A stretch of DNA of 64,000 bases from a virus, in IMG/VR virus record IMGVR_UViG_3300048999_000173, positions 1 through 64,000 of that record; one strand, 5' to 3'. Positions within the stretch are counted from its first letter, which is position 1. Each line of letters opens with the position of its first letter. Positions 15,305 through 61,601 of this stretch are shown here, in pieces. The position numbers and the translations under genes are program-made. A model generated the notes under the pieces. That model saw only the letters and a program-made list of their open reading frames with translations, was not told where the DNA came from and made no database searches.

Positions 15305-15787
15305 TCATCCCCGCGGTGTCGGTTCAGACGGGGGGAATCGGTCGTCGAACGACGAAAAGGACTCGCCGGAAGGGGCGAAGACCCCATGCCTGATCAGTTC
15401 CGGGGGAACGTCGGAATCGCAGGCTACGACGGTTACTCCGTTCTCATGGCTCGCCTGAGCCGACTGCAGGACTGGATACCTGTAGGGCTGGCCGGCCAGC
15501 AAAGTGCGGCCGCTGGACTGGAACTCGCGCGCCTTGTGGATCTCGTCTTTGACGGCCTGGACGGGGTCTCCGAATGAGGAGAGATCGAACCATTCGCCCT
15601 GGACCCGGTAGTCGTTGAAGACGACGTGCAGATGCCTTTCCAGTAGTTGGTCACCGTCTCCAGACCAACGCAGAACAAGGCGCGCCGGGTTGCCGGTCTG
15701 GAGGCCAGCAACCCGGCGAGCGGGCTCACCGGCCGTGTATCCGATCTTCACGGTGTTCGAGCCTTCGGGTGCAATTATGTAGATCAC
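15305..15787 (-). CDS. GIY-YIG/T5orf172-type nuclease domain protein
   Basis: 160 residues from GTG 15787 in a GTGA overlap. The first 70 residues follow the Mug113/T5orf172 pattern: VIYIIAPEGSNTVKIGYTAG, PARRVAGLQTGNPARLVL, then LERHLHVVFNDYRVQGEWFDL, where the Y/K-I-G, R and E positions match the GIY-YIG catalytic set. The rest is a low-complexity tail. Relatives occur in phages and mobile elements as nucleases or DNA-binding modules. It is followed by the ImmA-like gene in the same direction. Confidence 0.75.
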   Translation of the reverse strand: MIYIIAPEGSNTVKIGYTAGEPARRVAGLQTGNPARLVLRWSGDGDQLLERHLHVVFNDYRVQGEWFDLSSFGDPVQAVKDEIHKAREFQSSGRTLLAGQPYRYPVLQSAQASHENGVTVVACDSDVPPELIRHGVFAPSGESFSSFDDRFPPSEPTPRG

Positions 15788-16907
15788 GCAGTCACGTCCT
15801 CTCGAACGTCGACGCTGCTCTTGGCGTGGTTCCTGCACAGAAGGCTGCCAGGGTCTGTGGGGCGTCCGCACATCCCGTAGTTGCCCTCGCACTCCCCAGA
15901 GCCCTTCCGCGGTGCCACGGTCTCAGCCGACCACGCAGCCGGAGTAGGCGTCGGCCTTTCCTCCTTCGGGCGCCAACCATCGAACGAACTTGCGCTACTG
16001 GGAGGCGGGCTAGAGAGGGCCTGGCGAAGACGGCCAGCGACGACCGCGCCCACCGTGGTGGTGATCTGGTCCGGCAACTTGCGTCCGGCGATGACCTGCC
16101 TGATCTGTTTCGGCGTCCAGCCGGTCACCAGCATGCCGGCGACAGCCATTCCCTGATCCTGAAGCGTCTTTCCCGTCAGGAGAAACTCGGGCTGGTCCGC
16201 CCCAATGGCGAGGAGGAGGTCTACGCCCGGATTCCTGTTGATCTGATGGGGGACCGCTGGCCCGTCCGTCCCTCCGTCCTGTCCTCCTGCCGCGTCCTCG
16301 GGGACGGAGGGACGGGGAGTGTCCAGGGGTGGGTTAGTAGGGGAGGGTTGGGGGTCTTGCAGTCCCCGGGTGCCGGACTTGTAGTCCCCACCCCCAGGAC
16401 TTGTAGTCCCCCCCTCTTGCCCGGATTGCCCTAGGGACTCTGAGTCCCTACCGGGGGACTTGTAGTCCCCCCGTCGGTTTCGGGCTTCCGGCGGCGCCCC
16501 TTGTCCGCGCGCTGCTTCCGAGGCGGCGCTTCCGACAGATCGGGTCGCTCCATCGGCGTCAGGGGCGGCTTCCCCTTCGCCTTCCGATCGGCATTCACCT
16601 GGGTGATGTCCGGGAACCACGAGTACGGAATCATCAGGTCGTACACCTGAGGCCGGAAGTGCTCCGGGATGTATGCGGCGGCCGCCTGGTTCCCCTTGGA
16701 GATCAGGCCGCGCTCCGTCATCGCCTTCAGCCGACGCTGCACGGTCTTCGGGTCGATCTTCGCGATATCGGCGATCGTCTTCTTCGACGGGAACGCATCG
16801 GTTCCGTCCGACCAAGCGCTTTCCCCCAGAGGCATCAGGATGACGCGTTCCTCAGCGTCGACTACTGGGGCCGTCTTCATGGCCCACAGGATCGGCAGCA
16901 GGCTCAC
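15784..16907 (-). CDS. candidate replication initiator (lambda O-like layout), -1 frameshift in a G6 run
   Basis: GTG 16907 opens a frame encoding a winged helix (residues 10-80: VILMPLGESAWSDG, SKKTIADIAKIDPKTVQRRL, TERGLISKG) that stops at 16431. The -1 frame from the G6 run at 16467-16472 continues to 15784 with GDYKSPG repeats, a helical region (PEFLLTGKTLQDQGMAVAGML, WTPKQIRQVIAGRKLP) and a C-terminal C-x7-C...C-x2-H cluster. Joined length about 374 residues, the size of actinophage HTH proteins of this design. The linker is encoded by five palindromic iterons, as in lambda O. Initiator role is inferred. Confidence 0.7.
16351..16470. repeat. five 17-bp palindromic iterons, candidate origin
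   Basis: Sites at 16351-16367, 16373-16389, 16395-16411, 16433-16449 and 16454-16470, related to GGGGACTTGTAGTCCCC. Spacing is 22, 22, 38 and 21 bp, mostly two helical turns. They lie inside the linker part of the gene 15784-16907, whose N-terminus is a DNA-binding domain, so the product could bind its own gene and start replication there. Confidence 0.7.
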
Positions 16908-27080: not shown

Positions 27081-29408
27081 ATGACCACGGCCACCACCAC
27101 CCAGCACCGGCCCGGCACCGAGCGCGCCATCGCCGCCGTCACCGCCGCCGCCCCCGTGGCCGTCGGCATCCTCACCCCCTTCCTGGACGGCGACGCCACC
27201 ACCGTCCTCGCAGGCACCTACGTTGCAGCCAGCGCCCTCACCATCAGCAACGCCATGAACTTGATCCCAGCCGACCTCGCCGAACAACTCCCCGCCTCCG
27301 ACGTCCTGAAGGCACACAAGGCCACCCTGTTCGGATCCACCCTCACCACCGGCCTCGCCCTCGCCATGGGCTCCTTCGCAGGCGGGCCCGGCGCCGACGC
27401 GCTGATGCTCGGCTGGCTCCACACAGCCTCCAACCCGATCCCCGGGATCGTCTCCCTCGGCTGGTGGGCCGCCACCCTCCTCGTCCCCTACAAACTGCGC
27501 CGCATCCTCTGGCCCACCCGCGCCCGCAAGACCGCCCAGCCCGCCCGCCCGCAGCGTCCGGCCCAGCACCCGGCCATGCCCGCCCTTCCCCCCGACGTCC
27601 ACGACATCCTCGCCAAGTGGGGCCAGCACATCTCCCCGGACACCGGCACCCACAAGGGACAAGTCCTCCACGTCACCCACTTCGTCCCCGGCCGGTACTG
27701 GAAGGGAACCATCACCGCCACCACCCCCGGCGCCCCCGTCACCGTCACCCCCGAAACCGTCTCCGGCGTCTACCGCAAGCCCGCCGAATGGATCCACATC
27801 AACACCGGTGCACACGCAGGGGAACGCCACATCACCGTCAACCTGACCGCCCCACCGGAACTCGACACCAGCACTCTCCAAGGCGCCTGGCGCAAGTGGG
27901 CCGCCCGCTCCGGCGGCATCATGGCCGACACCCACCTCGAGAACGTGCAGGACGACCCCAACACCGGCGGCCAAGTCGCCGTCGTCGTCGCCGGAGAGAA
28001 CCTCGACAAGCTGCCAGTCCCCGACCGGGCCTCCCTCGCCGGAGCCCTCCGCACCAAGCCTCTCCTCATCTCCTACGAGCTGCGCCAGGACCCCCGCCAG
28101 GCCGTCATCCGCAAGATGGACCGCAACCCCCTCCAAGACGGCGCCGAATTCCCCGGCCTCCACGTCCTCAAGCCCAACGCCAACGGCTACATCCAGATCG
28201 GCCCCGGCATCAGCGGCTTCCCCGCCCGCATCCAACTCCACGACCCGAAACTGGGCGGCCAGCACGTCATCGTCGCCGGCGTCACCGGATCCGGGAAAGG
28301 CGGAACCCTCCAACTCATCGCCCTCGCCCACCACACCAGCGGATCAGCGATCATCTACGCCGACCCCAAGGGCTCCAGCAACCCCGCCATCACCAAGATG
28401 GCCGCCTACTCCGGCCTCGGCGAAGACGCCGCAATGGGCGCCCTCCGCATCTGGTACCACGGCCTGATGCGCCGCATCGAAGCGTCAGCGCGCGCGGAGA
28501 TGAAGAACTTCAAGCCCGCCAAGGACCGCCCCTGGGCCCCCCTCATCTTCGACGAGGCCAGCACCTTGCTGACCTCCGCCACCTACAAGAAGGAAGCCGT
28601 CCACATCATCAAGGACGGAGCAAAAAAGGGCCGCTCCCTCGGCATGCCGATCGTCCTCGCCAACCAGATCCTCCAACTGGCTGAACTGGGCGGCGAATCA
28701 GCCATCCGCGACAACATGTTCTACGGCGGCTCCCTCATCCTCCTGCGCTCCGACAGCTCCCAGAAGCACCTCGTCGACCTCCCCGACACGTTCGCCGGCT
28801 GCAACCCCGCCGACATCCCCCCCGCCTGGGCCGAAGACCGCGCCCTCGTCTTCGACCCCAACACCCCCCAGAACGACCCCATCCGCACCTTCGGCCTCAA
28901 CTTCTGCGCAGCCCCCGGCGCGCACGCCGAAATGTCCCGCACCTGGATCCTCGAGGACGCCACCCCCTACATCGAACAGGACAACGTCGGCATCCCTCAC
29001 GACTGGCCCTTCTGGGAAGACCGCCACGAACTCGCCCAGATCTCCGTCCTCCCCGACGGCGAAGGCAACGAGGACGACGACTACGAAGGCGGATCAGCCG
29101 GCACCTTCCTCACCGGACTCGACATCGGCCCGAAGAAGCCCGCCAGCGCCGACGACAAGATCCTCACCGCGCTCAAGGACGTCGCCGACCCCATGGGCCT
29201 CGAGTCCATCTACCTCGACAAGCCCACCATCACGCGGATCACCAGCGTCGAAGGCTCCACCCTCGACAACGCCCTCTCCCGCCTCGCCACCAACGGCAAA
29301 ATCCACCGCCAGATCAAGGACGGCAAGGAGATCCGCGGCATGTACGCCCACGGCCCCCGCCCCATCACCCCCACCGACGAGACCGACAACGGAGACGCGA
29401 CAACCTGA
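27081..29408 (+). CDS. FtsK/SpoIIIE-type membrane DNA translocase (TraB-like)
   Basis: 775 residues from ATG 27081 (GACAGGAG upstream). Four hydrophobic segments in residues 15-140 anchor it. The motor domain has a Walker A of the form GVTGSGKGG (K at about residue 406, G where S/T is usual) and Walker B LIFDEAS (D491, E492), with a RecA-like core between them and a winged-helix-like C-terminus (YLDKPTITRITSVEGSTLDNAL). FtsK/TraB proteins pump double-stranded DNA. In Streptomyces, TraB moves conjugative plasmids between hyphae without a relaxase. It lies at the end of the membrane-protein operon and before the phage terminase genes. Confidence 0.9.
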   Translation: MTTATTTQHRPGTERAIAAVTAAAPVAVGILTPFLDGDATTVLAGTYVAASALTISNAMNLIPADLAEQLPASDVLKAHKATLFGSTLTTGLALAMGSFAGGPGADALMLGWLHTASNPIPGIVSLGWWAATLLVPYKLRRILWPTRARKTAQPARPQRPAQHPAMPALPPDVHDILAKWGQHISPDTGTHKGQVLHVTHFVPGRYWKGTITATTPGAPVTVTPETVSGVYRKPAEWIHINTGAHAGERHITVNLTAPPELDTSTLQGAWRKWAARSGGIMADTHLENVQDDPNTGGQVAVVVAGENLDKLPVPDRASLAGALRTKPLLISYELRQDPRQAVIRKMDRNPLQDGAEFPGLHVLKPNANGYIQIGPGISGFPARIQLHDPKLGGQHVIVAGVTGSGKGGTLQLIALAHHTSGSAIIYADPKGSSNPAITKMAAYSGLGEDAAMGALRIWYHGLMRRIEASARAEMKNFKPAKDRPWAPLIFDEASTLLTSATYKKEAVHIIKDGAKKGRSLGMPIVLANQILQLAELGGESAIRDNMFYGGSLILLRSDSSQKHLVDLPDTFAGCNPADIPPAWAEDRALVFDPNTPQNDPIRTFGLNFCAAPGAHAEMSRTWILEDATPYIEQDNVGIPHDWPFWEDRHELAQISVLPDGEGNEDDDYEGGSAGTFLTGLDIGPKKPASADDKILTALKDVADPMGLESIYLDKPTITRITSVEGSTLDNALSRLATNGKIHRQIKDGKEIRGMYAHGPRPITPTDETDNGDATT

Positions 29409-30290: not shown

Positions 30291-30848
30291 ATGGCCTGGT
30301 CGAAATACAAGCTGGACGAAGTCATCGTCCGCCGCACCAAACTCCTCGAGCTGCGCCGCCAAGGCGTCCGATACGACGACGAGCGCATCGAGAAGCTCGG
30401 CTACAGCAGCCCCGGCGCCGCCCGCAAAGACCTCGCACGCGCCCTCGAAGCCCACCGCGACGAGGAAGCCGCCGAGGTCGGCATCTACCGGCAGCAGGAG
30501 AACGAACGCCTCGACGCCCTTCTCGAGGCCGTATGGTCGCGCGCCACCACCCTCTCACCCGTCCTCGATAAGGAAGGCGAGGTCATAGACCACGTCCTGG
30601 ACGTGAAGGCCGTCGACACCGTGCTGCGCCTCATGGACCGCCGCGCCAAACTCAACGGCCTTGACATGCCCGTCAAGGCGGAACTGTCCGGGCCCAACGG
30701 AGGCGCCCTGAGGATCGGGCCGGCCGGAATCGATGAACTGAACAAGCTGATCAACATGGCTGGCGACCCCGACGCCGAAGACGACGCCCCGGTCGAAGAC
30801 GAAGAACTGGAAGACGGCGACGTGGATGACGACGGCGACCACACCTGA
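30291..30848 (+). CDS. terminase small subunit
   Basis: 185 residues from ATG 30291. The N-terminal region (TKLLELRRQGVRYDDERIEKL, GYSSPGAARKDLARALEAH) is an HTH-like DNA-recognition domain, followed by a long helix (EVGIYRQQENERLDALLEAVW) and a strongly acidic tail (DDAPVEDEELEDGDVDDDGD). Small terminases bind phage DNA and hand it to the large subunit. It overlaps the large terminase start by 23 bases, which is the normal order. Confidence 0.85.
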   Translation: MAWSKYKLDEVIVRRTKLLELRRQGVRYDDERIEKLGYSSPGAARKDLARALEAHRDEEAAEVGIYRQQENERLDALLEAVWSRATTLSPVLDKEGEVIDHVLDVKAVDTVLRLMDRRAKLNGLDMPVKAELSGPNGGALRIGPAGIDELNKLINMAGDPDAEDDAPVEDEELEDGDVDDDGDHT

Positions 30849-32442
30849 CCAGTGGGACGGCCTCGAAGAACACGAAGTCGTCCAAGAGGCCGAAGCCCTC
30901 CTCCAACTCGTCGCCCGCTACCGGCGCCTCAACCGCGCCCAACGCCGCCGCATCGCCTTCCAGGCCAGCCCCGAAGTCCGCAGCGTCCTGGCCCAGGTCG
31001 AGTGCGACATGGCGCTCGAGCGATCCCCCGGCTCGATGGCCGCAGTCCTCACCGACGGACGCGAAAAGCAGGCCCGCCACCTCGACCTGATCGACCGAGT
31101 GTTCCGCGACATCGCCCGCGGCCACTCCCGCAAGGTCCTCATCACCATGCCCCCACGGCACGGCAAGTCCCGCCGCGCCGCCCGCTGGGCCCCCCTGTGG
31201 TTCCTGTCCCGGCACCCCGACCGCCGCGTAATGATCGCCTCCTACAGTGCCGACCTCGCCGACGACCACGGCCGGTGGATCCGCGACGCGATCGTCTCCT
31301 ACGGCCCCCAACTCGGCCTCGCCCTCCACGCCGGATCCAAGGCCGCCAACCGCTTCGACCTCGCCGACCCCGAGACCGGAGAACGCCTCGAAGGCGGCCT
31401 CGTCACCGCAGGCGTCGGCGGAGGCCTCACCGGCAAGGGCGCCCACCTCGCGATCGTCGACGACCCCATCAAGGACGCCGCAGACGCCGAATCACCCACC
31501 ATGCGCAAACGGCTGTGGGAGTGGTGGACATCCGTCCTCAACACCCGCGTCGAACCCGGCGGATCCATCATCGTCATCCAGACCAGATGGCACGAAAAGG
31601 ACCTCGCCGGCCGCATCCTCGAAGGCGAAGACGCCTCCGACTGGACCGTCATCGACCTGCCCGCGATCTGCGACAGCGAAGACGACCCCCTGGGCCGGGA
31701 GATCGGACAGCCGCTGTGGCCCATCCGATACGGCCTCAAAGCCCTCGAGAAGATCCGGCGCGCGGTCGGGGAACGCGTCTGGTGGTCCCTCTTCCAGCAG
31801 AAGCCACGCCCCCTCGAAGGCGGCGTGTGGAAGTGGCCATGGATCACCGACAACCGGATCAGTGCCGAGCGCTACCGGGCTGTCGACCTTTCGCGCACCG
31901 TCGTCGCCGTCGACCAGGCCGGAGGCGAGGGCGACACCCACGACGAGACCGGCATCATCGGCGCCGGCCGGACCACCGACGGCAACATGTACGTCCTCGC
32001 CGACCGGTCGGCGAACATGGGCGCGGACACGTGGGGGCACGTAGCGTGCCGCCTGGCCATCGAGCTGAAGGCCGACGCGTTCGTCGTCGAAGACAACTTC
32101 GGCGGCGACCAGTCCTCCCAGATCATCCGTCAGGCTTGGCGTGACCTGCAACGATCCGGGGAGACGGAGGGCCTCATCATGCCCCTGATCATCCCCGTGC
32201 ACGCCAAGCAGGGTAAGAAGCTTCGCGCCGAACCCATCGGCCAACTCGCTGCGCAGGCCCTCATCCACCACGTCGGCGAGTTCCCCCGCCTCGAAGGCCA
32301 GTTGGTCACCTGGATACCCGGCATGGATTCCCCGGACCGTATGGACGCCTACGTTCACGCCCTCACCGAACTTGCCGACCCTGCGCAAGAGGGCATCGGC
32401 GCTCAGCAGTATTCCGACCAGCGCCTCCGAGGCCGCCGCTGA
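30826..32442 (+). CDS. terL: terminase large subunit
   Basis: 538 residues from ATG 30826. ATPase half: Walker A TMPPRHGKSR (K114), Walker B LAIVDDP (D212-D213). Nuclease half: VVAVDQAGG (D363), later VVEDNFGGDQ and a DRMDAYVHALTEL block, the acidic RNase-H-like cluster. It cuts concatemers and pumps DNA into the capsid. Length fits the family. Overlaps the small subunit gene. Confidence 0.95.
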   Translation: MTTATTPDQWDGLEEHEVVQEAEALLQLVARYRRLNRAQRRRIAFQASPEVRSVLAQVECDMALERSPGSMAAVLTDGREKQARHLDLIDRVFRDIARGHSRKVLITMPPRHGKSRRAARWAPLWFLSRHPDRRVMIASYSADLADDHGRWIRDAIVSYGPQLGLALHAGSKAANRFDLADPETGERLEGGLVTAGVGGGLTGKGAHLAIVDDPIKDAADAESPTMRKRLWEWWTSVLNTRVEPGGSIIVIQTRWHEKDLAGRILEGEDASDWTVIDLPAICDSEDDPLGREIGQPLWPIRYGLKALEKIRRAVGERVWWSLFQQKPRPLEGGVWKWPWITDNRISAERYRAVDLSRTVVAVDQAGGEGDTHDETGIIGAGRTTDGNMYVLADRSANMGADTWGHVACRLAIELKADAFVVEDNFGGDQSSQIIRQAWRDLQRSGETEGLIMPLIIPVHAKQGKKLRAEPIGQLAAQALIHHVGEFPRLEGQLVTWIPGMDSPDRMDAYVHALTELADPAQEGIGAQQYSDQRLRGRR

Positions 32443-32509: not shown

Positions 32510-32532
32510 TGCACACGGTGAGGGAGCACGTA

Positions 32533-34443
32533 GTGGGCCTGCGCGAGGTCGTCATTCACGCCTGGTCGTGGCTGAACTACAAGCCCGTCTACTCCGGCCA
32601 CGACGGCGACGGCATGCCCAACCGGCGGGCCTTCCCCGAGTCCACCGCCATGTGGGTCCCCGAAGAGGACCAGAAACGCCTCGCCGCCTACAAGCTCCTC
32701 GCCGCCTACGACAACAACCAGTCCGCGGAACTCTCCGAGGTGTCCGGCGACCTGCACGCCCGTGAGCGGCGCGAGTTCGGCGACCCCTCCATGTACGTGG
32801 AGACCGTCATGTCCCACGTCCTTGGCCGCGAGCAGACCATCACCGTGCCCGGCGCCGACCACGAGGGTGACACCCCCACCCCCGACGAGGCGATGGCCGC
32901 CCGCATTGAGGAACTCCTGCGGGAGTGGGCGGAGGACGAGCAGCTGGCCATGCGGGTCCAGCAGTGCGAACGCAAGGCTGTCAGCCTCGGCGACGGCGTC
33001 TACCGGGTCGCGTGGGAGCCCGGCCGTATGCGGCCCACCGTCCGCGTCCACGACCCCGGCTTCTACTTCCCCGTGCTGCCCGAAGACGGCGACGCCGGCG
33101 ACTACCCCACCCGCGTCCACTTCGCGTGGGAACTCCCCGCCGACGAACGCCGCGGCCTGAAGGCGCGGCTGCGGCGCATCACCTACGAACTGGACTGGAT
33201 CGGCCCCGCGACCGGCTCCGGCGTCGACGAGCAAGGCCGCGCCGTGCGCGCCCCGCTCCCGCCCGACGAACCCGCCCTGGACATGCCGGACAACGAGGTG
33301 CCGCCGCCCCCGATCACCCCCGGCGACGTGTACTACCCGGCCACCGGCGCCATCGCCCGCCAGTACCCGTGGAACGACACCCCCTCCTACGTCACCTGCT
33401 ACCTCACCGACGCCACCTGGCAGTTGGAGGACCTGAAGGGCGCCCCCGACGTCGATTCCCTCCCGCTGTCGTCGGCGACGTTCGCGACCCGCGCGGACGG
33501 AGAGGTCCTCGACCACCTCGACCTGATGATCGACTTCGTTCCGGTGGTCCACCTCCCCAACACCGTCCCCCCGGCAGAAGAGCACTGGGGGCAGAGCAGC
33601 CTCGCCAAGGTCCTGCAGATCTTCGACGAACTCACCTCGTCCGACACCGACTCCGCGAAAGCCTCCGCCACCACCGGTGCCCCCATGATCGGGCTGTGGG
33701 GCAAGGCCGCCGGCTCCAGCATGGAAGCCCACCAGGTCACACCGGGCATGCTCCTGAAACTCGGCGAGAACGGCGGTATGACCGCCCTCGACACCAGCAA
33801 GAACCTCGCCGAACTCCGCAACCACATCCACGACCTGTCCGACCGCGCCGCGAAGGTTGCCCGCCTGCCCGCCGTCGCGCTCGGCACCGTCGACCCCTCT
33901 CTCGTACCGTCCGGGTACGCCCTGGAGATCTCCCTCGGCCCGCTGGACGCCCTCATCGCCTCCATGCGGCTGGCCCGTGACCACAAGTACGCGCTGCTCC
34001 TGAAGATGGTGCAGCGCCTCTACCTGGCCGGACAGCACCCCGACTGGGCGGGCATCACGCCGATGCCCGCGCGCCTCGCGTTCGGCTCCTACAAGCCGAC
34101 CGACAAGGCTGCCGTCCTCGAGCAGGTCACCACCGGCGTCGACAAGGGCGTCATCTCCCTGGAGACCGGCCTGAAAATGCTCGAGGAGGCCGGCTTCCCC
34201 ATCGACGACATCCCGGCGGAGATCGAACGCATCCAGTCCCGCCAGTTCGAAAAGGCCCGCACCCTCGCCGACGCCACTGGAGACACCCAACTGGTCGGCG
34301 ACTTCCTCGGGGTGAAGGTCAACGAACCCGACCCGGCGCCCGCACCACAACTCCCCGCCACACCCGGCGACCGGAACTCGGCCGCGCCCGCTACAGCGGC
34401 AGCCGGACAGGCAGGGCAACAGGACGGGGGGAACACTCCGTGA
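32533..34443 (+). CDS. portal protein
   Basis: 636 residues. AGGGAG at 32521-32526 is 6 bases before GTG 32533, so this start is preferred over GTG 32518. It follows the large terminase and has typical portal features: an extended N-terminal arm, a beta-rich middle, a long helix (LLREWAEDEQLAMRVQQCERKAV), repeated helical segments (AELRNHIHDLSDRAAKVARL, AVALGTVDPSLVPSGYAL) and a disordered Pro/Ala C-terminus. Twelve copies form the DNA channel at one capsid vertex. Confidence 0.9.
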   Translation: MGLREVVIHAWSWLNYKPVYSGHDGDGMPNRRAFPESTAMWVPEEDQKRLAAYKLLAAYDNNQSAELSEVSGDLHARERREFGDPSMYVETVMSHVLGREQTITVPGADHEGDTPTPDEAMAARIEELLREWAEDEQLAMRVQQCERKAVSLGDGVYRVAWEPGRMRPTVRVHDPGFYFPVLPEDGDAGDYPTRVHFAWELPADERRGLKARLRRITYELDWIGPATGSGVDEQGRAVRAPLPPDEPALDMPDNEVPPPPITPGDVYYPATGAIARQYPWNDTPSYVTCYLTDATWQLEDLKGAPDVDSLPLSSATFATRADGEVLDHLDLMIDFVPVVHLPNTVPPAEEHWGQSSLAKVLQIFDELTSSDTDSAKASATTGAPMIGLWGKAAGSSMEAHQVTPGMLLKLGENGGMTALDTSKNLAELRNHIHDLSDRAAKVARLPAVALGTVDPSLVPSGYALEISLGPLDALIASMRLARDHKYALLLKMVQRLYLAGQHPDWAGITPMPARLAFGSYKPTDKAAVLEQVTTGVDKGVISLETGLKMLEEAGFPIDDIPAEIERIQSRQFEKARTLADATGDTQLVGDFLGVKVNEPDPAPAPQLPATPGDRNSAAPATAAAGQAGQQDGGNTP

Positions 34444-36178: not shown

Positions 36179-37225
36179 ATGGAAGCTCTCGAGCTCCTCC
36201 TGCGGGACACCAACGACACCGACCTGACGGTGTTCGCCCGGGCCATGTACACCCCGGCGAACTACCGCCTCACCCGGGAGATCCTTCCGGAGTTCCCCAT
36301 CCAGGGCGTCAAGTTCCGCACCACGTCCGCGAAGCGGCGCGTCAACGCGGCCAAGTTCCGCGCCTACGACGCACCGACCGCGCTCGCCAAGCGCCAGGCG
36401 GAACGAGTCGTCAACGAGGGCATGCTGCCCGCCCTCGGCCAGACCCTCCCCATCACCGAGATGGACCAGATCCTGCTGGACGTCGGCCGCGGGGCCGACA
36501 CCCAGCAGTACATCGACCTGCTCTACTCGGACGTCGAACGGCACGTCGAGTCCATCAAGACCGCGCAGGAGATCGCTGCCGGCCAGCTCCTGGCCACCGG
36601 CAGGGTCGACCTGCCCGGCATCGGCCTGGACGTCAACTGGAACGTCCCCTCGGCGAACATGCCCACCGCCGGAGTGCTTTGGGACCAGCCGACCGCCACC
36701 CCGCTGTCTGACGAGCGCGCGTGGATCGACTACCTCGTCGACTCCGGCGCCCCCGCGCCGAAGGAGGTCCTCACCTCCCGGCGCGCCCGCTCCATGCTGG
36801 CCTCCAACGCTGAGTATCAGATGGCCTTCTACGGGCAGAACTCCGCCAACAACCCGGGCACCACGCTGTCGCCGCTCGAGGTCGACGCCGTGCGCGCCCG
36901 CTTCGGCCTCCCGCCGATCGTCATCTACGACGTCCAGGTGTGGAACGACGACGTCTACCAGCGGGTCATCCCGGACAACAAGTGGATCCTCATCCCCGAC
37001 GTCCCGGCGTCGGAGTGGGCGCAGACGCAGTACGGCGTCACCCGCGAGGCCGCGAAGTTCACCTCCGGCACCAACCCGGCCCTCACCCGCGAAGAGGCCC
37101 CCGGCATCGTCGTCGTCACCAAGGTCGAGGACGACCCGGTGCAGATCTACACCCGAGGCGCCGCGATCGGCATGCCGGTCCTCTACGTCCCGGACATTCA
37201 CATCTCCGCCACCGTCCTGGGGTGA
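36179..37225 (+). CDS. major capsid protein (phage lambda E family)
   Basis: 348 residues from ATG 36179, preceded by GAAGGAG. Characteristic segments are TPANYRLTREILPEFPIQGV, VKFRTTSAKRRV and the C-terminal PVLYVPDIHISATVLG, typical of the E-like capsid family, which folds as HK97 and needs a scaffold, in agreement with the gene two places upstream. Length is normal. Confidence 0.9.
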   Translation: MEALELLLRDTNDTDLTVFARAMYTPANYRLTREILPEFPIQGVKFRTTSAKRRVNAAKFRAYDAPTALAKRQAERVVNEGMLPALGQTLPITEMDQILLDVGRGADTQQYIDLLYSDVERHVESIKTAQEIAAGQLLATGRVDLPGIGLDVNWNVPSANMPTAGVLWDQPTATPLSDERAWIDYLVDSGAPAPKEVLTSRRARSMLASNAEYQMAFYGQNSANNPGTTLSPLEVDAVRARFGLPPIVIYDVQVWNDDVYQRVIPDNKWILIPDVPASEWAQTQYGVTREAAKFTSGTNPALTREEAPGIVVVTKVEDDPVQIYTRGAAIGMPVLYVPDIHISATVLG

Positions 37226-42737: not shown

Positions 42738-45700
42738 GTGGCCAACTGGAACCTGTCGGTAGACCTGCGCGGGCACGGCAACGACCTCGCCCAGTCCCTG
42801 AAGTCGTCCGCGAAGAACGCCCGCACCCTCGCCAACGCCGCCCGAACGGCGAAGACCGAGGTGAAGGAGCTCGGTCAGGCGTCGCTCACCGCGTCCCGGC
42901 ACGTACGCACCCTCGGCAGCGAAGCCCGCACCACCGCGCGCCGCCTCAACTCCCTGGGTGACGGCGCCCAGACCGCGGCCCGCCGCCTCACTCGCTACGG
43001 AGATGCAGCACAGACCGCGAACCGGCACGTTAACTCCCTGGGCGACAACTCCCGCACCAGTGCCCGGCAGCTGGCCCGCATGTCCGGGCAGATCGACACC
43101 GCCGTCCGCGACCTGCTGCGCCTGGCCGACGCCGCCCGGCGCGCCGACGCCCGCCTGACCCGGGTGGGCGGCGCGGGCGTTACCGGGGTGCGCCGCTACA
43201 GCGAGGAGACCGGCCGGCTGCGCAGCCACCTCGTGTCGGTGGCCGCTCTGCTGTCCGGCGGCGCCCTGGTCATGGGTGCCGGGGAACTGATCAAGCAGGG
43301 CAACGAGTACCAGCAGGCGATGAACGCGTTCGGTGCGACCACCGGCGCCACGCAGATGCAGATGAAGCGGGCCGGAGCGACCGCCAACCAGCTCGGCGGC
43401 GACCTGAAACTCCCCGGGGCGACCGCCGCGGACGCTGCCGACGCCATGGTGGAACTCGCCAAGGCGGGATTCCGGACCGACCAGGCGATCTCCGCCACCC
43501 GGGCCAGCCTCACGCTCGCGTCCGCCGCGCAGGTCAACGCCGCCGACAGCGCGAAGTACTTGGGCGACATGATGGACCAGTTCGGCCTCGGCGCCGACCA
43601 GGCGTCCGTCGCCGCCGACACCCTGGCCGCCACCGCCAACGCCGCCAGCGGCGACATCACTGACATCTACTACGCGATGAAGTACGCCGGCCCGGTGGCG
43701 CACGGGCTCGGGATCTCCCTGCAGGAGACCGCGGCCGGCGTCGGCATGCTCGGCAAGGCGGGCATCCTCGGCCAGACCGCGGGTACCACGCTGCGCGGCA
43801 TGTTTGCCAACCTGGCGGCCCCCACCAAGCAGATGACCGAGGGCCTGGACTCCCTGGGCATCAAGGCGTGGGACGCGCAGGGCAACTTCAAGGGCCTCCG
43901 CAACATCATCGACGGCCTGTCCAAGGCCCAGCACACGATGAACCAGCAGGACTTCGCGGCCGCCGTGAAGAAGGCGTTCGGCAAGCCCGCGATGTCCGGT
44001 GCCATCGCCATGGCCCACCAGGGCACCGCCTCGTTCGACTCGCTGATGCAGTCCGTCTCCCAGACCGGGGCCGCATCGGAGATCGCCGCCGCCAAGGGCA
44101 AGGGCCTGGCCGGTGCGATGCTGCAGCTCAAGACGCAGGCCAAGCAGACCGGCCTGACGATCTACCAGGGGACGGCGCCCGGCCTCGAGCGCCTCACCCG
44201 CGCCGCCACCGACGGCCTGTCCAAGGCCACCCCGCACATCAAGGAGTTCTTCGACTACCTCAACTCCGCATCTGCCCTCCTGGGCCCCGACATCGGGAAC
44301 GCCCTGAAGAAGGAGTTCTCCGGGATCGGCGACGCGGCCGGCGACATGATGGCCCCGCTGAAGGACCTGGCCGGCACCGCAGCCGCCGACGGCCTCCACC
44401 TCCTGATCACCGCCGGGCAACTGGTCATCGAGGTCCTCAAGAACGCCGCCGACGCGATCCAGCCCATCGTGTCCGCCCTGGACGGCCTGTCCGGCGAGTC
44501 AGGGACCGTCGCCTCCACCATGGACCTCGTCGTCACCGCCCTCGACCTGGCCGCCACCGCCGCAGGCGCCCTCTCCGGTGTACTCGTCCCGATCGGGCAC
44601 GTCGTCGGCACCCTTGTCTCCGGGTTCGCCGCCCTGCCCGGCCCCATCCAGCAGTTCGTCCTCGCCGCGCTGCTGGTGCGCCGCATCCAGCCCGGCATGA
44701 CCGGCCTGGCCACCACCGTCCGCACCCGCGTCGGCGGCGCCTTCCAGGCCCTCAACCAGCAGATGGCCGTCCAGCGCGGCCTGGCCGCCTCCGCCGGGGT
44801 CTCCCTCACCCGCTACGGCGCCGCGATGGCCGTCCTCCAGACGCGGGTCCCGGTCATCGGGCAGATGGGCAACGCGTTCCGTACCGCCGCCACACAGGGC
44901 GAAGGCTTCCGCGGCACGCTGCGCGGCATCACGGCCGCCGCCGGGACCGGGCTGCGCGGCGCGATGGGTGGCCTGATGGGTGCGATGGGCGGCCCGTGGG
45001 GGCTCGCCCTGACCGGGCTCACCGTGGGCCTCGGGCTCCTCGCGGACTCCCAGCAGAAGGCGGCCGCGCGCGCTGCCGAGCACAAGGCCACCATCGACGG
45101 CCTCACCTCCGCGATGCGCCAGTCCAACGGGGTCATCGACGAGAACGTCCGCCAGCAGGCCGCCCAGACCATCCAGAACACGAAGCTGGCCGGCAGCAAC
45201 CAGACGCTGTCCACGTTCATGGGGAAGATGGGCTACAGCCTGTCCGACCTGACGGACGCCTACCTGGGCCAGGGCACCAGCGTCGACAAGCTCGCCGACA
45301 AAATGCTCAACCTGGCGCGGGCGAAGGGCGCGGAGGCCCTCAAGGACGGACCCCACAACGTGGACAAGTCCGTCATGGCGCAGGCCAACGCGTACGCCGC
45401 CGCCGGGAAGGCACTGAAGGGCATGTCGGGGGACGCCTCGACCGCGGCGAAGAACGCCAAGGACCTGGACGCGGCGACCAAGGGCACCGGCGACGGGGTC
45501 AGCGCCTACAGCAGGCTCAAGGACGCCGTCACGGCGCTCGGCGACAAGACCGCGGACGCCGACCAGCGCACCCGGGCCCTGCGGGACGCCCTCGACCTGC
45601 TGTCCGGCGGGTCCGTGTCACTCCAGGCCGCGCAGGCCCGCGTGAACGAGGCCATCACCAACGCCAACGAGGCGATGCAGGAAGGCATCGACCACGCCGA

Positions 45701-47981
45701 CGGCTGGGGCAAGGCCCTCATCAAGGCCAACGGGTCCCTGGACACCACCACGAAGAACGGGCAGGGCCTGTTCAACACGTTCAACACGATCGCCGACGGC
45801 GCGTCCAACGCCGCGGTGGCCGCCTACGACTTCGCCCAGTCCCAGGGCAAGGACCTGCCTTCCTCGCTGGCCGCCGCGCGCCGGGAGATGCAGTCCGCCC
45901 GGGACTCCGCGGTCAAGCTGGGCACCCAGTACGGGCTGAGCAAGACGCAGGCCGAAGGCGTCGCTGACTCCCTGGGCCTGATCCCCGGACAGGTTTCGAT
46001 CCTCCTCCAGACCGAGGGCGTCGACTCCACCCTGTCCGAACTGGTCGCCGTACAGGCCGCGTTCCAGCAGGTCCCGAACTCGAAGACGGTGACGGTCGAT
46101 TCGATCAGCACCCAGGCGAAGGCGGACCTGGAGGACCTGGGCTACAAGATCGAGCTGATCCCCGGCACGCGCGAATACAAGATCACGGCGCCGACGAAGC
46201 AAGCCCGCGACGACCTCGACCTCCTCATCGGCGAGATGTCCAAGGTCCCGCCCGCCAAGGGCGTCCAGGTCGACGCGAAGACCGCAGTCGCCATCGGTGA
46301 ACTCGAAGCCGTCCAGGCCAAGATCGAGACGACGCACGGCAAGACCATCACCATGAAGGCGCCGACCGCGGCGGCTCAGACCCAGCTCGAAGCCCTCGGC
46401 TTCAAGATTCATCAGGTGCCGGGGTCGAAGAACGTCACCATCAGCGTCCCCACCGGCGGCCCGAAGAGCGCGGTCAGCTCCATCCAGAGCGCCATCAACA
46501 GCCTCCACGGCAAGACGGTCACCAACTACGTCAACTCGATCGTCACGACCACGAAGAAGTCCGTTCACGAGGTCGTCGGCAACGCGGACGGCGGCGTGTG
46601 GGACTACTTCGCCGACGGCGGCGTCCGCGCGCCCCGCGTCACCAAGTTCGCCGGTGGCAGCGAGAACCACGTCGCACAGATCGCCCGCGGTGGCGACTGG
46701 CGCATGTGGGCGGAACCCGAGACTCACGGCGAGGGCTACGTCCCCTTCGCCCGCTCCAAGCGACCCCGCTCCCGGAAGATCACCGAAGAGATCGTGCGGC
46801 GCCTGGGTGGCGACCCGTCCGCCATCCAGTGGAACGCCGACGGCAACGTCACCGACTGGCGCTACGACCCCGCCACCGGCTCCCTCTACTCCGCCTCCGA
46901 CGCCGGACAGGCAGGCCACAAGACCAAGAAGGTGAAGGTCAAGGTCAAGGGAAAGGTCACGACGAAGGACGTCGACTACTTCGACATCGGGGCTGTCGAA
47001 GCGAAGCTGAAGTCGGCGGCCAAGGCGACCACGGCCTGGAACAAGGACCTCGAGAAGGTCGCGGACCGGGCCGGCGGAGACGTCGCCGACGCCCTCGCGG
47101 GCATGGGCGAGGACGGCATGAAGCTCGCCCACAAGATGGCCACCGGCAGCACCAAGTACATCAACGACATGGCGGCCGCCCTCCGCAACCTGCAGAAGAC
47201 CGCGAAGGCTTCCCTGACGGACTACACCCGCCAGCTCGGGCAGTCCAACACCCTGACCAAGGCGTTCTCCGACAACCTGGCCAAGCTGGCCGCTGAGGGA
47301 TTTGGCGACCTCGCCTCCCAGCTGGCCGCGCAGAACGACCAGGCAGCGCAGGAACTGGCCGCCGCCGCGGTGAAGGACAAGGGCAAGGCGTCGAAGGCGA
47401 ACGCCGCGGCGAAGACCGCGAACAACGCGCTGACCGCCGACCAGGTCTCCGAGCTCGTGCAGATCATCGCAGCGATCGGCACATCGAAGACCGGCATCCA
47501 CGACGTGGCCGCGAAAACGCTCCTGGGCGAGGACGAGATCATCACCGTCGGGAACAAGGCGAAGGCGCAGATCTCCAAGGCGCTCGGCACCCGCGCCACC
47601 AAGTTCCTCGCCGACCTCGGGCGCGCCAACAACCACCTGTCGTACGCCGACGGCGGCATCCGCTCCGGGATCTACGCCACCCGGGGCGGCGCCGTCACGT
47701 TCGCGGAGCCGGAGACCGGCGGCGAAGGCTTCATCCCCCTCAGCCCGAGCAAGCGGCGCAGCGCCCTGCCTGTCCTCGGGGACATCGCACACCGCTTCGG
47801 CCTGGGCCTGACCGACGTGGCCGCCTCCCGCGCGGTAGTCGTCATCCGGGAGGGCGGCGACACCCACGTCAGCGTCACCGCGGTCCGCACCGGCGCCACC
47901 GCGTCCGACATCGGATCGCAGGTCGGGCGCTCCGTCCGCCGCGCGCGCAGGGGAGGGGTGAACGCCCGTGCCGGATCTTGA
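42738..47981 (+). CDS. tail tape measure protein
   Basis: 1747 residues from GTG 42738 (AGGGGA upstream). The N-terminal coiled-coil region has imperfect repeats (ARRLNSLGDGAQTAARRLTR). Residues 180-450 match the TP901-type tape-measure core (NAFGATTGATQMQMKRAG, LTLASAAQVNAADSAKYLGD, FANLAAPTKQMTEGLDSLGI). Several hydrophobic segments lie at about 600-780. The C-terminus has ADGG ... AEPETHGEGYVPF (about residue 1335) and ADGG ... AEPETGGEGFIPLSPSKR (about residue 1660), a duplicated module. Length predicts a tail near 0.26 micrometre (0.15 nm per residue rule). Confidence 0.95.
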   Translation: MANWNLSVDLRGHGNDLAQSLKSSAKNARTLANAARTAKTEVKELGQASLTASRHVRTLGSEARTTARRLNSLGDGAQTAARRLTRYGDAAQTANRHVNSLGDNSRTSARQLARMSGQIDTAVRDLLRLADAARRADARLTRVGGAGVTGVRRYSEETGRLRSHLVSVAALLSGGALVMGAGELIKQGNEYQQAMNAFGATTGATQMQMKRAGATANQLGGDLKLPGATAADAADAMVELAKAGFRTDQAISATRASLTLASAAQVNAADSAKYLGDMMDQFGLGADQASVAADTLAATANAASGDITDIYYAMKYAGPVAHGLGISLQETAAGVGMLGKAGILGQTAGTTLRGMFANLAAPTKQMTEGLDSLGIKAWDAQGNFKGLRNIIDGLSKAQHTMNQQDFAAAVKKAFGKPAMSGAIAMAHQGTASFDSLMQSVSQTGAASEIAAAKGKGLAGAMLQLKTQAKQTGLTIYQGTAPGLERLTRAATDGLSKATPHIKEFFDYLNSASALLGPDIGNALKKEFSGIGDAAGDMMAPLKDLAGTAAADGLHLLITAGQLVIEVLKNAADAIQPIVSALDGLSGESGTVASTMDLVVTALDLAATAAGALSGVLVPIGHVVGTLVSGFAALPGPIQQFVLAALLVRRIQPGMTGLATTVRTRVGGAFQALNQQMAVQRGLAASAGVSLTRYGAAMAVLQTRVPVIGQMGNAFRTAATQGEGFRGTLRGITAAAGTGLRGAMGGLMGAMGGPWGLALTGLTVGLGLLADSQQKAAARAAEHKATIDGLTSAMRQSNGVIDENVRQQAAQTIQNTKLAGSNQTLSTFMGKMGYSLSDLTDAYLGQGTSVDKLADKMLNLARAKGAEALKDGPHNVDKSVMAQANAYAAAGKALKGMSGDASTAAKNAKDLDAATKGTGDGVSAYSRLKDAVTALGDKTADADQRTRALRDALDLLSGGSVSLQAAQARVNEAITNANEAMQEGIDHADGWGKALIKANGSLDTTTKNGQGLFNTFNTIADGASNAAVAAYDFAQSQGKDLPSSLAAARREMQSARDSAVKLGTQYGLSKTQAEGVADSLGLIPGQVSILLQTEGVDSTLSELVAVQAAFQQVPNSKTVTVDSISTQAKADLEDLGYKIELIPGTREYKITAPTKQARDDLDLLIGEMSKVPPAKGVQVDAKTAVAIGELEAVQAKIETTHGKTITMKAPTAAAQTQLEALGFKIHQVPGSKNVTISVPTGGPKSAVSSIQSAINSLHGKTVTNYVNSIVTTTKKSVHEVVGNADGGVWDYFADGGVRAPRVTKFAGGSENHVAQIARGGDWRMWAEPETHGEGYVPFARSKRPRSRKITEEIVRRLGGDPSAIQWNADGNVTDWRYDPATGSLYSASDAGQAGHKTKKVKVKVKGKVTTKDVDYFDIGAVEAKLKSAAKATTAWNKDLEKVADRAGGDVADALAGMGEDGMKLAHKMATGSTKYINDMAAALRNLQKTAKASLTDYTRQLGQSNTLTKAFSDNLAKLAAEGFGDLASQLAAQNDQAAQELAAAAVKDKGKASKANAAAKTANNALTADQVSELVQIIAAIGTSKTGIHDVAAKTLLGEDEIITVGNKAKAQISKALGTRATKFLADLGRANNHLSYADGGIRSGIYATRGGAVTFAEPETGGEGFIPLSPSKRRSALPVLGDIAHRFGLGLTDVAASRAVVVIREGGDTHVSVTAVRTGATASDIGSQVGRSVRRARRGGVNARAGS

Positions 47982-50920: not shown

Positions 50921-53020
50921 GTGGACATCGGCAAGGAACTCGTCCGCCTCCAGAAGCAGGTCACCACCCTGCAGCGCTCCCCGCGCCTTAACCACGCCTC
51001 CATCGAGGACACGGCCATCCTGGTCAACGACGGCACGGGGAGCCTGCGCGGCATCATCGGCGTCCAGGCGGACGGCACCACCGCGGTGAACGTCGTCAAC
51101 GGACCGCCCCCGCCCCAGACGTCCGCGCCGATCGTCGCCTCCGTCCTCGGCGGCGTCACCGTCTCCTGGGACGGCCTCTTCGCCGGCGGCGCCGTCATCC
51201 CCCTGGACTGGGCCCGCGTCGAAGTCCACGCCTCCATCACCCCCGTCTACGACCCAATCGCCGCCACCCTGCAGGGCACCATCGAGACCGCGCAGGGCGC
51301 CACCGTCGTCGTCCCCTGCGACACACCCGTATACGTCCGCCTGGTGGCCCGCAACACCTCCGGCACCGCATCCACGCCCTCGGACACCGTGGGACCGCTC
51401 GGGCCGATCGCTGTGGTCGCCGACGACATCCTGGACGGCATCGTCACCACGGCGAAGCTCGCCGACGACGCGGTCACCGCAGCGAAGGTCGCCACCGGCG
51501 CCATCGACGTGGACGCCCTCGCCGCCGCCGCCGTGACAGCGGCGGCCATCGCCGCGGACGCCGTCACGGCGACCGCGATCGCCGCCGGAGCGGTCGGCAG
51601 CACGGAACTCACCGCGGCCGCCGTCACCGCCGCGAAGATCGCCGCCGGAGCCGTCATCGCGGGCAAGTTGGACGCGGCCAGTGTCGTCGCCGGGAACATC
51701 GCCGCCGCCGCCGTCCAGGCCGGGAACCTGGCCGCGAACAGCGTCCAGGCGGGGAACATCGCCGCCAACGCCGTCCAGGCCGGCACCGTCGACGCGAACG
51801 CCATCACCGCCCGAGAAATCGCCGCACTCGCCGTCACCGCCGGGAAGATCGCCGCGAACGCGGTCACCGCGGGCACCATCAACGCGGGCGCCGTCACCAC
51901 CGCCAGCCTCGCCGCCGGATCCGTCGACGCCACCGCCCTGTCCGCAACCGCCATCACCGGCAAGACCATCACCGGCGGCACCGTCACCGGCGCCCTCATC
52001 CAGACCGCCGCGTCCGGCCAGCGCATCACCCTCAACGAGTCCTCCGCCAACAAGATCCTCGTCTACAACGCCTCCGGCACCGCCATCGGGGAACTGTCCG
52101 CCAGCGGACTCCTCGTCAAGGGCACCAACGGGTCGGTGCTCCAACTGGACCCGAACGCCACGTACCCGAACTTCAAACTGACCAACGCAGCCGGCACCAA
52201 TGCAGCCGTCATCAACGTCGTCGGCACCAACGCCTTCATGGGCCTGAACTCCGGTCTCTTCACCTCCGGCGCAGTCACGGACTGGAAATGGCGGACCCTC
52301 TTCGGCAGCGACGGCACCAACGAGATATGGGTAGCAGAACGCGTCCGGGACTCCAGCACCAGCACCTACCTCGGCGGCCGCGTCCTTCTAGACGCCAGCC
52401 ACGCCGTCATCGGCTTCGGCGACAGCAGCGGCGCCAGCCCGGACAACTACCTCCGGCTGTACTCCGGACTCTCCCAGTTCCTGTCGAGCCGTCTCGAGGT
52501 ATTCGCCCCGGCCTCCAGTAGCAGCACCTTCTACCTCCAGGCCGACTCCGGCCAGACCGGGAACCTGCTGCGCATCAACGTCGGCGCGACCTCGGACAAG
52601 TTCACCGTCGACAAGGACGGCAACGTCACCGCCGCCGGGGACGTCACCTCAACCCCCATCAAGACCACCACCGGGCTCACCGCGGGCAGCGGCTTCACCA
52701 TCAACACCGGCGGCTTCACCGGCTACAAGGTCGGCAAACAGGTCGTCATCGACATGTACCTCCACCGCTCGGGCACCACCATCACCTCCAGCAGCGGCAA
52801 CATCACCGACACGACGGTCGCGACCCTTCCCGCCGGATGGCGGCCCACCAGCGGCACCATCAACGCCGCCTGGGACGACGGCACCACCTCCGGCGGCTGG
52901 GTCGTCGGCACCGACGGCATCTGCACCCTGCGCACCAGCATCAGCGACATCGTCGGCGACGCCACCACCGCCGGATCCGGGCGCAACCTGCGCTTCCACA
53001 TCGCCTTCATCCAGGACTAG
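50921..53020 (+). CDS. tail fibre with decapeptide-repeat shaft
   Basis: 699 residues from GTG 50921. Residues 1-175 attach to the baseplate (DIGKELVRLQKQVTTLQRSP, then an Ig-like stretch). Residues 175-354 consist of about 18 copies of a ten-residue repeat of the type V-x-A-G-x-I-A-A-N-A (51443-51982), a fibrous shaft. Residues 360-699 are a beta-rich tip (SANKILVYNASGTAIGEL, DWKWRTLFGSDGTNEIWVAE, RNLRFHIAFIQD) that probably binds the cell surface. Codon use is ordinary. Confidence 0.8.
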   Translation: MDIGKELVRLQKQVTTLQRSPRLNHASIEDTAILVNDGTGSLRGIIGVQADGTTAVNVVNGPPPPQTSAPIVASVLGGVTVSWDGLFAGGAVIPLDWARVEVHASITPVYDPIAATLQGTIETAQGATVVVPCDTPVYVRLVARNTSGTASTPSDTVGPLGPIAVVADDILDGIVTTAKLADDAVTAAKVATGAIDVDALAAAAVTAAAIAADAVTATAIAAGAVGSTELTAAAVTAAKIAAGAVIAGKLDAASVVAGNIAAAAVQAGNLAANSVQAGNIAANAVQAGTVDANAITAREIAALAVTAGKIAANAVTAGTINAGAVTTASLAAGSVDATALSATAITGKTITGGTVTGALIQTAASGQRITLNESSANKILVYNASGTAIGELSASGLLVKGTNGSVLQLDPNATYPNFKLTNAAGTNAAVINVVGTNAFMGLNSGLFTSGAVTDWKWRTLFGSDGTNEIWVAERVRDSSTSTYLGGRVLLDASHAVIGFGDSSGASPDNYLRLYSGLSQFLSSRLEVFAPASSSSTFYLQADSGQTGNLLRINVGATSDKFTVDKDGNVTAAGDVTSTPIKTTTGLTAGSGFTINTGGFTGYKVGKQVVIDMYLHRSGTTITSSSGNITDTTVATLPAGWRPTSGTINAAWDDGTTSGGWVVGTDGICTLRTSISDIVGDATTAGSGRNLRFHIAFIQD
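51443..51982 (+). repeat. 30-bp coding tandem repeat in the tail fibre
   Basis: About 18 units of 30 bp encode ten-residue repeats such as VTAAKVATGA, VQAGNIAANA and VTAGKIAANA. Phase is exact across the array, but units differ at most third positions, showing old duplication under protein-level selection. Confidence 0.75.
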
Positions 53021-60165: not shown

Positions 60166-60573
60166 ATGACTCAGACCGCCGACGACCTGGTGCAGTTTCT
60201 GCATGTCCGACTCGAAGAAGAAGAGCAACTCGCGCAGGCGGCAACGCCGGGCCCGTGGAAGCAGAACGGCATCGGCGAATACGGATGGACGGTCAGCTTC
60301 AGTCGACCGGGCTCCGGGGTAGAGACCGAGGACAGCGGCCAGGGGCGCGCCGACGCCGACTACATCGCCGCGCACGCCCCCGAGCGCGCCCTGCGGGAGA
60401 TCGCCTTCAAGATGAGCCTCCTGACCGAGTACACCAAGGAGGAGTGGGTGATGAAGCAGGGGCACCGCAGCGGATGGACTGAGGGCGGCCAGTCCGTACG
60501 CGACCTCCTCATCAAGGAGTGGGCCTCCGCCTACGACGCCCACCCCGAGTACCGCCAGGAGTGGCGGCCGTGA
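60166..60573 (+). CDS. DUF6221 family protein
   Basis: 135 residues from ATG 60166. It opens TQTADDLVQFLHVRLEEEEQ, then QAATPGPWK, and ends YDAHPEYRQEWRP, the standard DUF6221 bookends seen in Streptomyces and its phages. Function unknown. It overlaps the integrase start by 4 bases, so both are translated from one message, and a role in integration control is plausible. Confidence 0.8.
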   Translation: MTQTADDLVQFLHVRLEEEEQLAQAATPGPWKQNGIGEYGWTVSFSRPGSGVETEDSGQGRADADYIAAHAPERALREIAFKMSLLTEYTKEEWVMKQGHRSGWTEGGQSVRDLLIKEWASAYDAHPEYRQEWRP

Positions 60574-61601
60574 GCGCTGACAACCTGCCCGCCAGACCCG
60601 CCGAACGCCCGCTCCTGCCCGCAGAGTTCGACGACGAGCTGCGCGCGCGCCTCGCCGCCCTCGACTCCGCCTCCGACGAACACGCCGCCGACCAACGCCC
60701 CGACAACACCACCCGCGCCTACGCCGGAGACTGGAAGACCTGGGAAGCCTTCTGCACCCAACTCCAGATCCCCCCAACGGCTGCCACCCGCGGCACGCTG
60801 CGCGCGTTCGTCGACTACCTGTGGAACCGGGAGAAGCGCGCCTACACCACCATCGACCGCAAACTCGCCGGGCTCGTCGTCACCCTCCGGCGGCCGCCGT
60901 ACAACGTCCTCGTCGACCCCGACGCCACCCGCGCCGCCCGGGAACTGCTGAAGGACTACCGCAAGAAGGCCGACGCGGCAGAGGAGCCCGCGCGCGGCCG
61001 CGGCAAAGCCCCCGCCATGCGCCTGGTCGACCTGAGGCTCATCGTCTCCAAGTGCGACACCGACATCTTCGGCCTCCGCGACCGCGCGATGATCCTGCTC
61101 GGGTTCTCCATCGCCGCACGCCGCGCCGAGTTGGCCGGGCTCCGGCTGCGGAACATCCGCGACGACGACAACGGCCTCCTGGTCGACGTCCGCGTCTCCA
61201 AGACCGAACCCCGCACGGTGGCTGTGCCGTACGGGCAGCATGCGGCCACCTGCCCCGTGAAGGCGTGGCAGGCCTGGCGAGACGCCGCGCAGATCGCCGA
61301 CCCGGACCGGCACGCCTTCCGCCGTATCCACCACACCGGCTCCGTACAGCCCCAGGGTCTCACCCCGCAGCGCGCCGGCGACCTCATCACCGCCGCCGGG
61401 CTGCGCGCAGGGTTCGAGGAACTCTTCACAGGGCACTCCGTGCGCTCCGGCATGGCCACCGAGGCACGCCGTGCAGGGAAGGACCGCAAGGCCATCGCCG
61501 CGGTCACCGGGCACGCGGACGGCTCCAAGGTCCTGGACGGCTACATGCGGATCGTCGACCAGTGGAGCGAGCAGGACAACGCCCTCATCGGTCTCATGTA
61601 G
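60570..61601 (+). CDS. int: tyrosine integrase
   Basis: 343 residues from GTG 60570 in a GTGA overlap. Catalytic residues of the phage integrase family: R in AARRAEL (about 184), H-x-x-R in TGHSVRSG (H289, R292), H in TGHADGS (H315) and the nucleophile Y in GYMRIVDQ (Y325). The N-terminal part (NTTRAYAGDWKTWEAFCTQL) is the SAM-like core-binding domain. It would recombine attP with a host attB, as expected for this temperate phage. It overlaps a convergent PIN gene by 8 bases. Confidence 0.95.
   Translation: MSADNLPARPAERPLLPAEFDDELRARLAALDSASDEHAADQRPDNTTRAYAGDWKTWEAFCTQLQIPPTAATRGTLRAFVDYLWNREKRAYTTIDRKLAGLVVTLRRPPYNVLVDPDATRAARELLKDYRKKADAAEEPARGRGKAPAMRLVDLRLIVSKCDTDIFGLRDRAMILLGFSIAARRAELAGLRLRNIRDDDNGLLVDVRVSKTEPRTVAVPYGQHAATCPVKAWQAWRDAAQIADPDRHAFRRIHHTGSVQPQGLTPQRAGDLITAAGLRAGFEELFTGHSVRSGMATEARRAGKDRKAIAAVTGHADGSKVLDGYMRIVDQWSEQDNALIGLM

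Follow-up and report, generated by a model that had tools for sequence, protein, structure and literature searches.

A Streptomyces plasmid-phage initiator gene that probably carries its own replication origin in the linker coding region

Replication origins located inside the gene of their own initiator are known from few models, each with one or few DNA words. The question raised by the locus described here is whether a short array of palindromes within the coding region of an actinobacterial gene represents such an origin. The locus is part of a stretch of 64 kb (in the following called the window), which is the beginning of an IMG/VR virus record of 83,576 bases. According to the original prediction, the palindromes lie in the linker of a winged-helix (wHTH) gene and form an origin resembling that of phage lambda in outline. 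This interpretation was supported in outline and the underlying observation was partly confirmed. The locus is likely a Streptomyces plasmid-phage initiator gene with its own origin in the linker coding region, i.e. an iteron-in-initiator cassette, in which the palindromes are probably both the landing sites of the initiator and the start of DNA copying. The in-gene arrangement itself is already known from phage lambda and from staphylococcal plasmids. Here, it characterises a large actinobacterial family in which, judged from sequence comparison, the DNA word changes along with a single residue of the initiator that would recognise it.

The window encodes a terminase (30826-32442), a portal protein (32518-34443), a major head protein (36179-37225), a tape measure protein (42738-47981), an integrase (60519-61601) and an FtsK/HerA-like protein (27081-29408). 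The terminase shows up to 85% identity to terminases of circular Streptomyces plasmids of approximately 88-92 kb, and pZL12 (90,435 bp), for which PMC3583192 cites a paper whose title uses the term plasmid-phage, has a gene content of the same kind as the window record. Because of the phage genes, the terminase kin on Streptomyces plasmids and the pZL12-like gene content, the context of the record is assigned to a Streptomyces plasmid-phage. A GIY-YIG (T5orf172/MUG113) nuclease-like gene at 15305-15892 adjoins the initiator gene, and the same is seen in no fewer than three other loci, either relatives or syntenic (L080, L088 and L089).

Five 17-bp sites built around GGACTNNNAGTCC are located at 16351-16470. 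Site 1 (16454-16470; GGGGACTACAAGTCCCC on the minus strand) and site 2 (16433-16449; AGGGACTCAGAGTCCCT) are perfect palindromes. They are followed by site 3 (16395-16411; GGGGACTACAAGTCCTG), site 4 (16373-16389; GGGGACTACAAGTCCGG) and site 5 (16351-16367; GGGGACTGCAAGACCCC), the last of which contains an asymmetric AGACCCC half; many homologues have this half at their last site as well. By rising coordinate the start-to-start distances are 22, 22, 38 and 21 bp, and pairing of the 7-bp arms is perfect in two sites, 6/7 in one site and 5/7 in two sites. The exact core GGACTNNNAGTCC is present in four copies in the entire 83.6-kb record, every one in the array, and a reversed control of the core pattern gave 0 matches across the same record. 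When one mismatch was allowed, seven core matches were found in 64 kb as compared to 2.4 expected, and five of these seven are located inside 116 bp, where approximately 0.005 are expected. Since the looser count of the 17-mer with three mismatches over the window was not significant (7 found, 7.6 expected), the case from the window by itself rests on this clustering. A permissive palindrome count in the window alone was not decisive, as 35 of 2000 shuffles reached the observed repeat count. At the level of sequence, the reality of the array is settled by the comparison with homologues described below. Apart from the array, a high repeat-palindrome score was obtained in the window only at 51480-51720, for low-complexity Ala/Val-rich coding repeats in a tail-region gene.

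Approximately 40 actinobacterial homologues were gathered from plasmids, genomes and virus contigs, and the array is retained in nearly all of them. A scan of virus contigs using the N-terminal domain (NTD) sequence of the window alone retrieved nothing, whereas alignment queries did retrieve homologues. Across 44 loci, 184 sites were found at the same position directly after the wHTH domain with a modal spacing of 22 bp, a typical array comprising four sites at 22-24 bp spacing plus one wider gap, often of 37-50 bp. The loci L022, L027 and L035, in which the automatic array caller failed and family-type palindromes are visible, were excluded from the counts. The half-site is common within each array and differs among elements; GGGGACT, GGTGTCT, GGCGACT, GGGTGCT, GGGCTCT, GGGAACT, GGGGATT and GGGGTTT were observed, as well as ACGCACT in distant chromosomal relatives. 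Watson-Crick pairing is present at 1079 of the 1288 arm positions. A check for homologues losing the palindromes yet keeping the linker thus found the reverse, as the palindromes are kept while their sequence drifts.

The initiator gene is encoded on the minus strand. The winged helix predicted for its N-terminus was borne out for the N-terminal ORF of 158 aa (16431-16907), both by a match to the Pfam domain HTH_36 (PF13730; E 5.7e-6, 26.5 bits at a gathering cutoff of 25) and by an AF2 model with a pLDDT of 91.8; the intact homologues L018, L016, L026, L037 and L078 score 32-43 bits against the same domain. In PHROG, the window NTD matched phrog_1032, replication initiation protein (E 1.4e-13), and O-like PHROGs too. 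A PDB sequence search gave no match, and a fold search returned generic wHTH folds only, none with E < 0.007. The nearest of these were MarR-like with weak scores, and the initiator entries 5kbj, 4pt7 and 4pql are included among the weak matches.

The helical C-terminal domain (CTD) with its Cys-containing tail (15787-16242, minus strand) is encoded in a frame other than that of the wHTH ORF, namely by a second-frame ORF (16815-15784) which also holds sites 3-5. The frame break is located at 16431-16454 within the array. Because the TAG stop codon of the wHTH ORF falls on the border of site 2, only sites 1 and 2 lie inside this ORF. The prediction of five palindromes phased at about 22 bp in the linker of a wHTH gene therefore stood with respect to the sites, their spacing and their palindromy, but not with respect to the placement of all five within the wHTH ORF. 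As sequenced, the window copy would give a wHTH-only product; a longer one would require that the break results from faulty sequencing or is overcome during translation. The window record thus lacks one continuous ORF that includes a C-terminal effector domain, though the CTD is present in the other frame, and the broken frame was counted against an in-gene origin. The AF2 model of the CTD is of low confidence (pLDDT 54). The domain is 64% identical to that of L030 over 176 aa, and the differences between both in the C-terminal frame are distributed over codon positions 1, 2 and 3 as 18, 7 and 40; this third-position bias indicates that coding selection acted on the C-terminal part at least until recent times.

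Nearly all homologues have the wHTH domain, the array and the C-terminus in one ORF. It is unbroken in 33 of 37 homologues examined and broken in the window, L015, L047 and L083, in each case at a different place inside the array or immediately behind it. The spacing of the first two sites is 21 bp in the window as compared to 22 bp in L015. Changes in array length are an obvious source of such breaks, 22 bp being 1 mod 3, and the break in the window either arose by mis-sequencing or misassembly of G/C runs or is a genuine mutation.

The recognition helix predicted by AF2 secondary structure spans residues 53-65 (codons at 16713-16751, minus strand). Its second residue, residue 54 (codon at 16746-16748, minus strand), is a lysine in the window. 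Lys54 goes together with GG at half-site positions 3-4, and R, E and S at this residue accompany other letters there. This correspondence was found in 42 of 43 aligned homologues, as compared to 35 of 43 for the next best column, the lone exception being L077 (Gln54, GGGGTCT). On a tree built without the recognition helix, residue 54 and the half-site each change approximately five times. A permutation over 18 clades, which were taken as independent, yielded agreement in 17 (p ~3e-4). A strict sign test on three supported independent pairs (two in agreement, one tie) was not significant and was counted against the in-gene origin. The tracking of the half-site by residue 54 is the best in-silico evidence that the wHTH domain would bind these repeats.

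Signs of an origin were found in several arrays of the family. Five exact DnaA boxes are present in 5,384 bp of arrays (0.03 expected from shuffled arrays) and none in 118,952 bp of flanking sequence; they lie inside the arrays of L005, L007, L014, L027 and L081 or at their borders. In many homologues the tract following the array is enriched in AT, e.g. with a GC content of 0.44 vs 0.70 in L021. The window array contains no exact DnaA box, and the tract directly after it (16306-16350; 27 C and 3 G on the minus strand) is G-poor and C-rich, not AT-enriched, and is a weak candidate for an unwinding region; both findings were counted against an origin at this place. A dnaB gene is located directly downstream of the initiator gene in L078 and L084, and, in the related plasmid-phage loci L085, L088 and L090, directly after the gene which occupies the corresponding position. 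A tblastn search of the window record with one such DnaB, that of S. chartreusis, gave no match.

A mechanism can be proposed in which the winged helix of the initiator would bind the 17-bp palindromic iterons, approximately two helical turns apart, probably as dimers, and in which the bound initiator would build a nucleoprotein complex on the array. The CTD would then recruit the replicative helicase or primase, which would be encoded by a neighbouring gene in some relatives and otherwise by the host. Additionally, host DnaA would be attracted in some relatives by DnaA boxes located between the iterons.

Different functions of the repeats have to be weighed against this origin. The array could be an autoregulatory operator, at which the wHTH protein would prevent transcription or serve as a roadblock without being a replication initiator. 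Repressors typically combine a wHTH domain with palindromic sites, MarR-like regulators are the closest solved folds, if with weak scores, and the sequenced window ORF encodes a wHTH domain only. However, the sites are located approximately 450 bp inside the gene rather than at a promoter, the PHROG matches are replication initiators, dnaB adjoins several relatives, DnaA boxes are confined to the arrays and conserved CTDs are retained, and an operator is accordingly considered improbable. The chances are smaller again, and slight, for the repeats being mRNA hairpins that join both ORFs, e.g. by programmed frameshifting or attenuation. In a transcript, each site would fold into a hairpin of 7 bp, a change of frame within the array is required in the window and frame breaks recur in four homologues, but no frameshift is needed in the intact majority (33/37), the directions of the breaks differ (f0->f2 in the window, f0->f1 in L015) and a canonical slippery heptamer in the right phase was not found. 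On these grounds programmed frameshifting was rejected as a family feature. A function as RNA hairpin was rejected because the arm mismatches are not wobble-like, G.U pairs accounting for 12 of 209 without enrichment and A.A and T.T being among the mismatches; moreover, it is a residue of a DNA-binding helix that tracks the half-site. Selection of the repeats for their amino acids, as a peptide linker, is hardly credible, although proline/serine-rich linkers are common and the same peptide is repeated in some distant relatives (pZL12 gp082). It was predicted that the iterons encode GDYKSP and GTTSP in differing frames, which is the case, and that the repeat is selected as DNA and not as protein. 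In 43 of 44 loci the sites of one gene occupy two or three reading frames, and the peptides they encode are unrelated although the DNA word stays the same. The repeat is therefore conserved as DNA, and the protein-repeat reading is refuted by this frame usage.

A further alternative concerns the window copy and not the family. At 70859-76835 of the record (L086:6859-12835), outside the window, a second replication module of plasmid type is located, which comprises a 510-aa wHTH protein, a homologue of the helicase loader DciA and ParA. Relatives of the 510-aa protein occur in 166 plasmid records, almost all of them from Streptomyces, gp020 of pZL12 is a distant relative (29%, 7e-17), and the module is also found on pSLE1, an 86.4-kb plasmid of S. 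leeuwenhoekii. Its presence was counted against the in-gene origin, and because of it the window gene need not be the maintenance origin or the only replicon of the element. In P1, a maintenance replicon is accompanied by a lytic replicon, the origin of which has been postulated within the repL coding sequence (PMC9948254). By analogy, the cassette with the in-gene origin may be a lytic replicon; the likeness to RepL/oriL, i.e. a plasmid-phage with two replication modules, is one of description, and oriL of P1 is AT-rich. The gene could also be dead in the window element, i.e. a former origin inactivated by a real mutation, with replication carried out wholly by the wHTH-DciA-ParA module. The broken frame in the array and the second replication-like module at 70.9-76.8 kb point in this direction, but the iterons and the CTD are in other respects well preserved, most differences falling on the third codon position, and a one-base error in the G/C runs, which are up to 7 long, is an equally simple explanation. 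A dead gene is thus regarded as rather unlikely, if far from negligible, and it would be compatible with an in-gene origin at the level of the family.

With regard to the in-gene origin, the best reading of the window protein is that of an HTH_36 (PF13730) initiator which works like lambda O or the Rep proteins of pSK41 and pPR9 and belongs to neither the lambda O nor the RepA_N family. The lambda O gene contains four dyad-symmetric iterons 20-24 bp apart after the DNA-binding domain (NC_001416 annotation), and O dimers build the O-some, which recruits P-DnaB (PMC3985674). Likewise, the window family has approximately four dyad-symmetric iterons in the initiator gene after the DNA-binding domain. 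Unlike lambda O (PF04492), the window protein has no Phage_rep_O match up to E 1, and hhalign of the window NTD against lambda O gave a probability of 0.2%, i.e. no sequence relation is detectable. The predicted resemblance to lambda O in an actinobacterial context consequently held in outline, on the strength of in-gene iterons, initiator PHROGs, residue-54 tracking and DnaA boxes, but does not extend to a detectable common ancestry. In pSK41 Rep, a RepA_N protein, the wHTH NTD binds four Rep boxes central in rep, the linker is dispensable and the CTD recruits the replication machinery (PMC5703833). The iterons of the window family are also centrally placed within the initiator gene, whereas the window NTD has no RepA_N (PF06970) match in Pfam up to E 1 and the sites are GC-rich 17-bp palindromes of actinobacterial plasmid-phages. 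Rep proteins of the pPR9/pUSA03 type consist of a PF13730 NTD joined to the pSK41 CTD, the NTD and the origin having been swapped as a block with the CTD kept (PMC5703833). The window NTD has the same Pfam domain, HTH_36, the likeness standing at the level of the Pfam domain; in contrast to the swap in few plasmids of Firmicutes, swapping recurs here through the family.

Direct homologues of the window initiator with arrays are carried by pCQ3 (L010) and pCQ4 (L013). The NTDs of pCQ3 and L030 are 77% identical and their CTDs are unrelated. Conversely, gp082 of pZL12, a mosaic relative at the same spot with other in-gene repeats, shares a CTD with L016 (38% identity, 1e-20), the NTDs of both being unrelated and the in-gene repeats differing. 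The matching spot in related plasmid-phages adjoins a GntR gene and diverges from the late operon. The initiator-like genes found there have NTDs that are unrelated or barely related to that of the window and in-gene repeats of other sequence, namely TTCCGGCAATGCCGGAT in L088 and L090, GGGTACCC at 22 bp distance in L089 and TGCCACCC in L085. The syntenic relative L087 has no clear in-gene palindromes, which was counted against the in-gene origin. Related HTH_36 NTDs with in-gene repeats right after them are present in Arthrobacter phage Galaxy, Gordonia phage Soos and Pseudomonas phage JBD68, the latter with 22-bp iterons containing GGGGTGCAA; these NTDs are 38-51% identical to the nearest NTD of the family and are combined with other C-terminal parts and other repeat words.

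This mosaicism argues that the NTD together with the array recombines with different CTDs. The wHTH domain and the iterons would thereby act as one cassette, in which the DNA word changes jointly with the protein and which recombines with different CTDs at the array. It is tentatively suggested, with somewhat less than even confidence, that Streptomyces plasmid-phages, as a whole class, hold a slot for a swappable, probably lytic, initiator-origin cassette, in which residue 54 would largely set the word, CTDs would be swapped via the array and compatibility could change in one step. With more than 40 natural versions in one family, in which DNA site and recognition helix change together, the specificity of initiator and origin, plasmid incompatibility and the swapping of modules can be tested directly by exchanges of single residues or single bases. 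Streptomyces genetics would gain predicted mutually compatible minimal replicons.

Some further features of individual loci were observed. In the distant chromosomal relatives from Streptomyces (L059-L066) the in-gene palindromes have the form ACGCACT...AGTCCGT. An extra GC-rich palindrome is located approximately 50-60 bp downstream of the array in L037 (gene offset 591), L034 (573) and L010 (625). Two equal initiator cassettes are present near both ends of the linear S. lavendulae chromosome, at 46.8-55.2 kb (L016) and 8636.5-8644.9 kb (L017), in opposite orientation as terminal inverted repeats would give.
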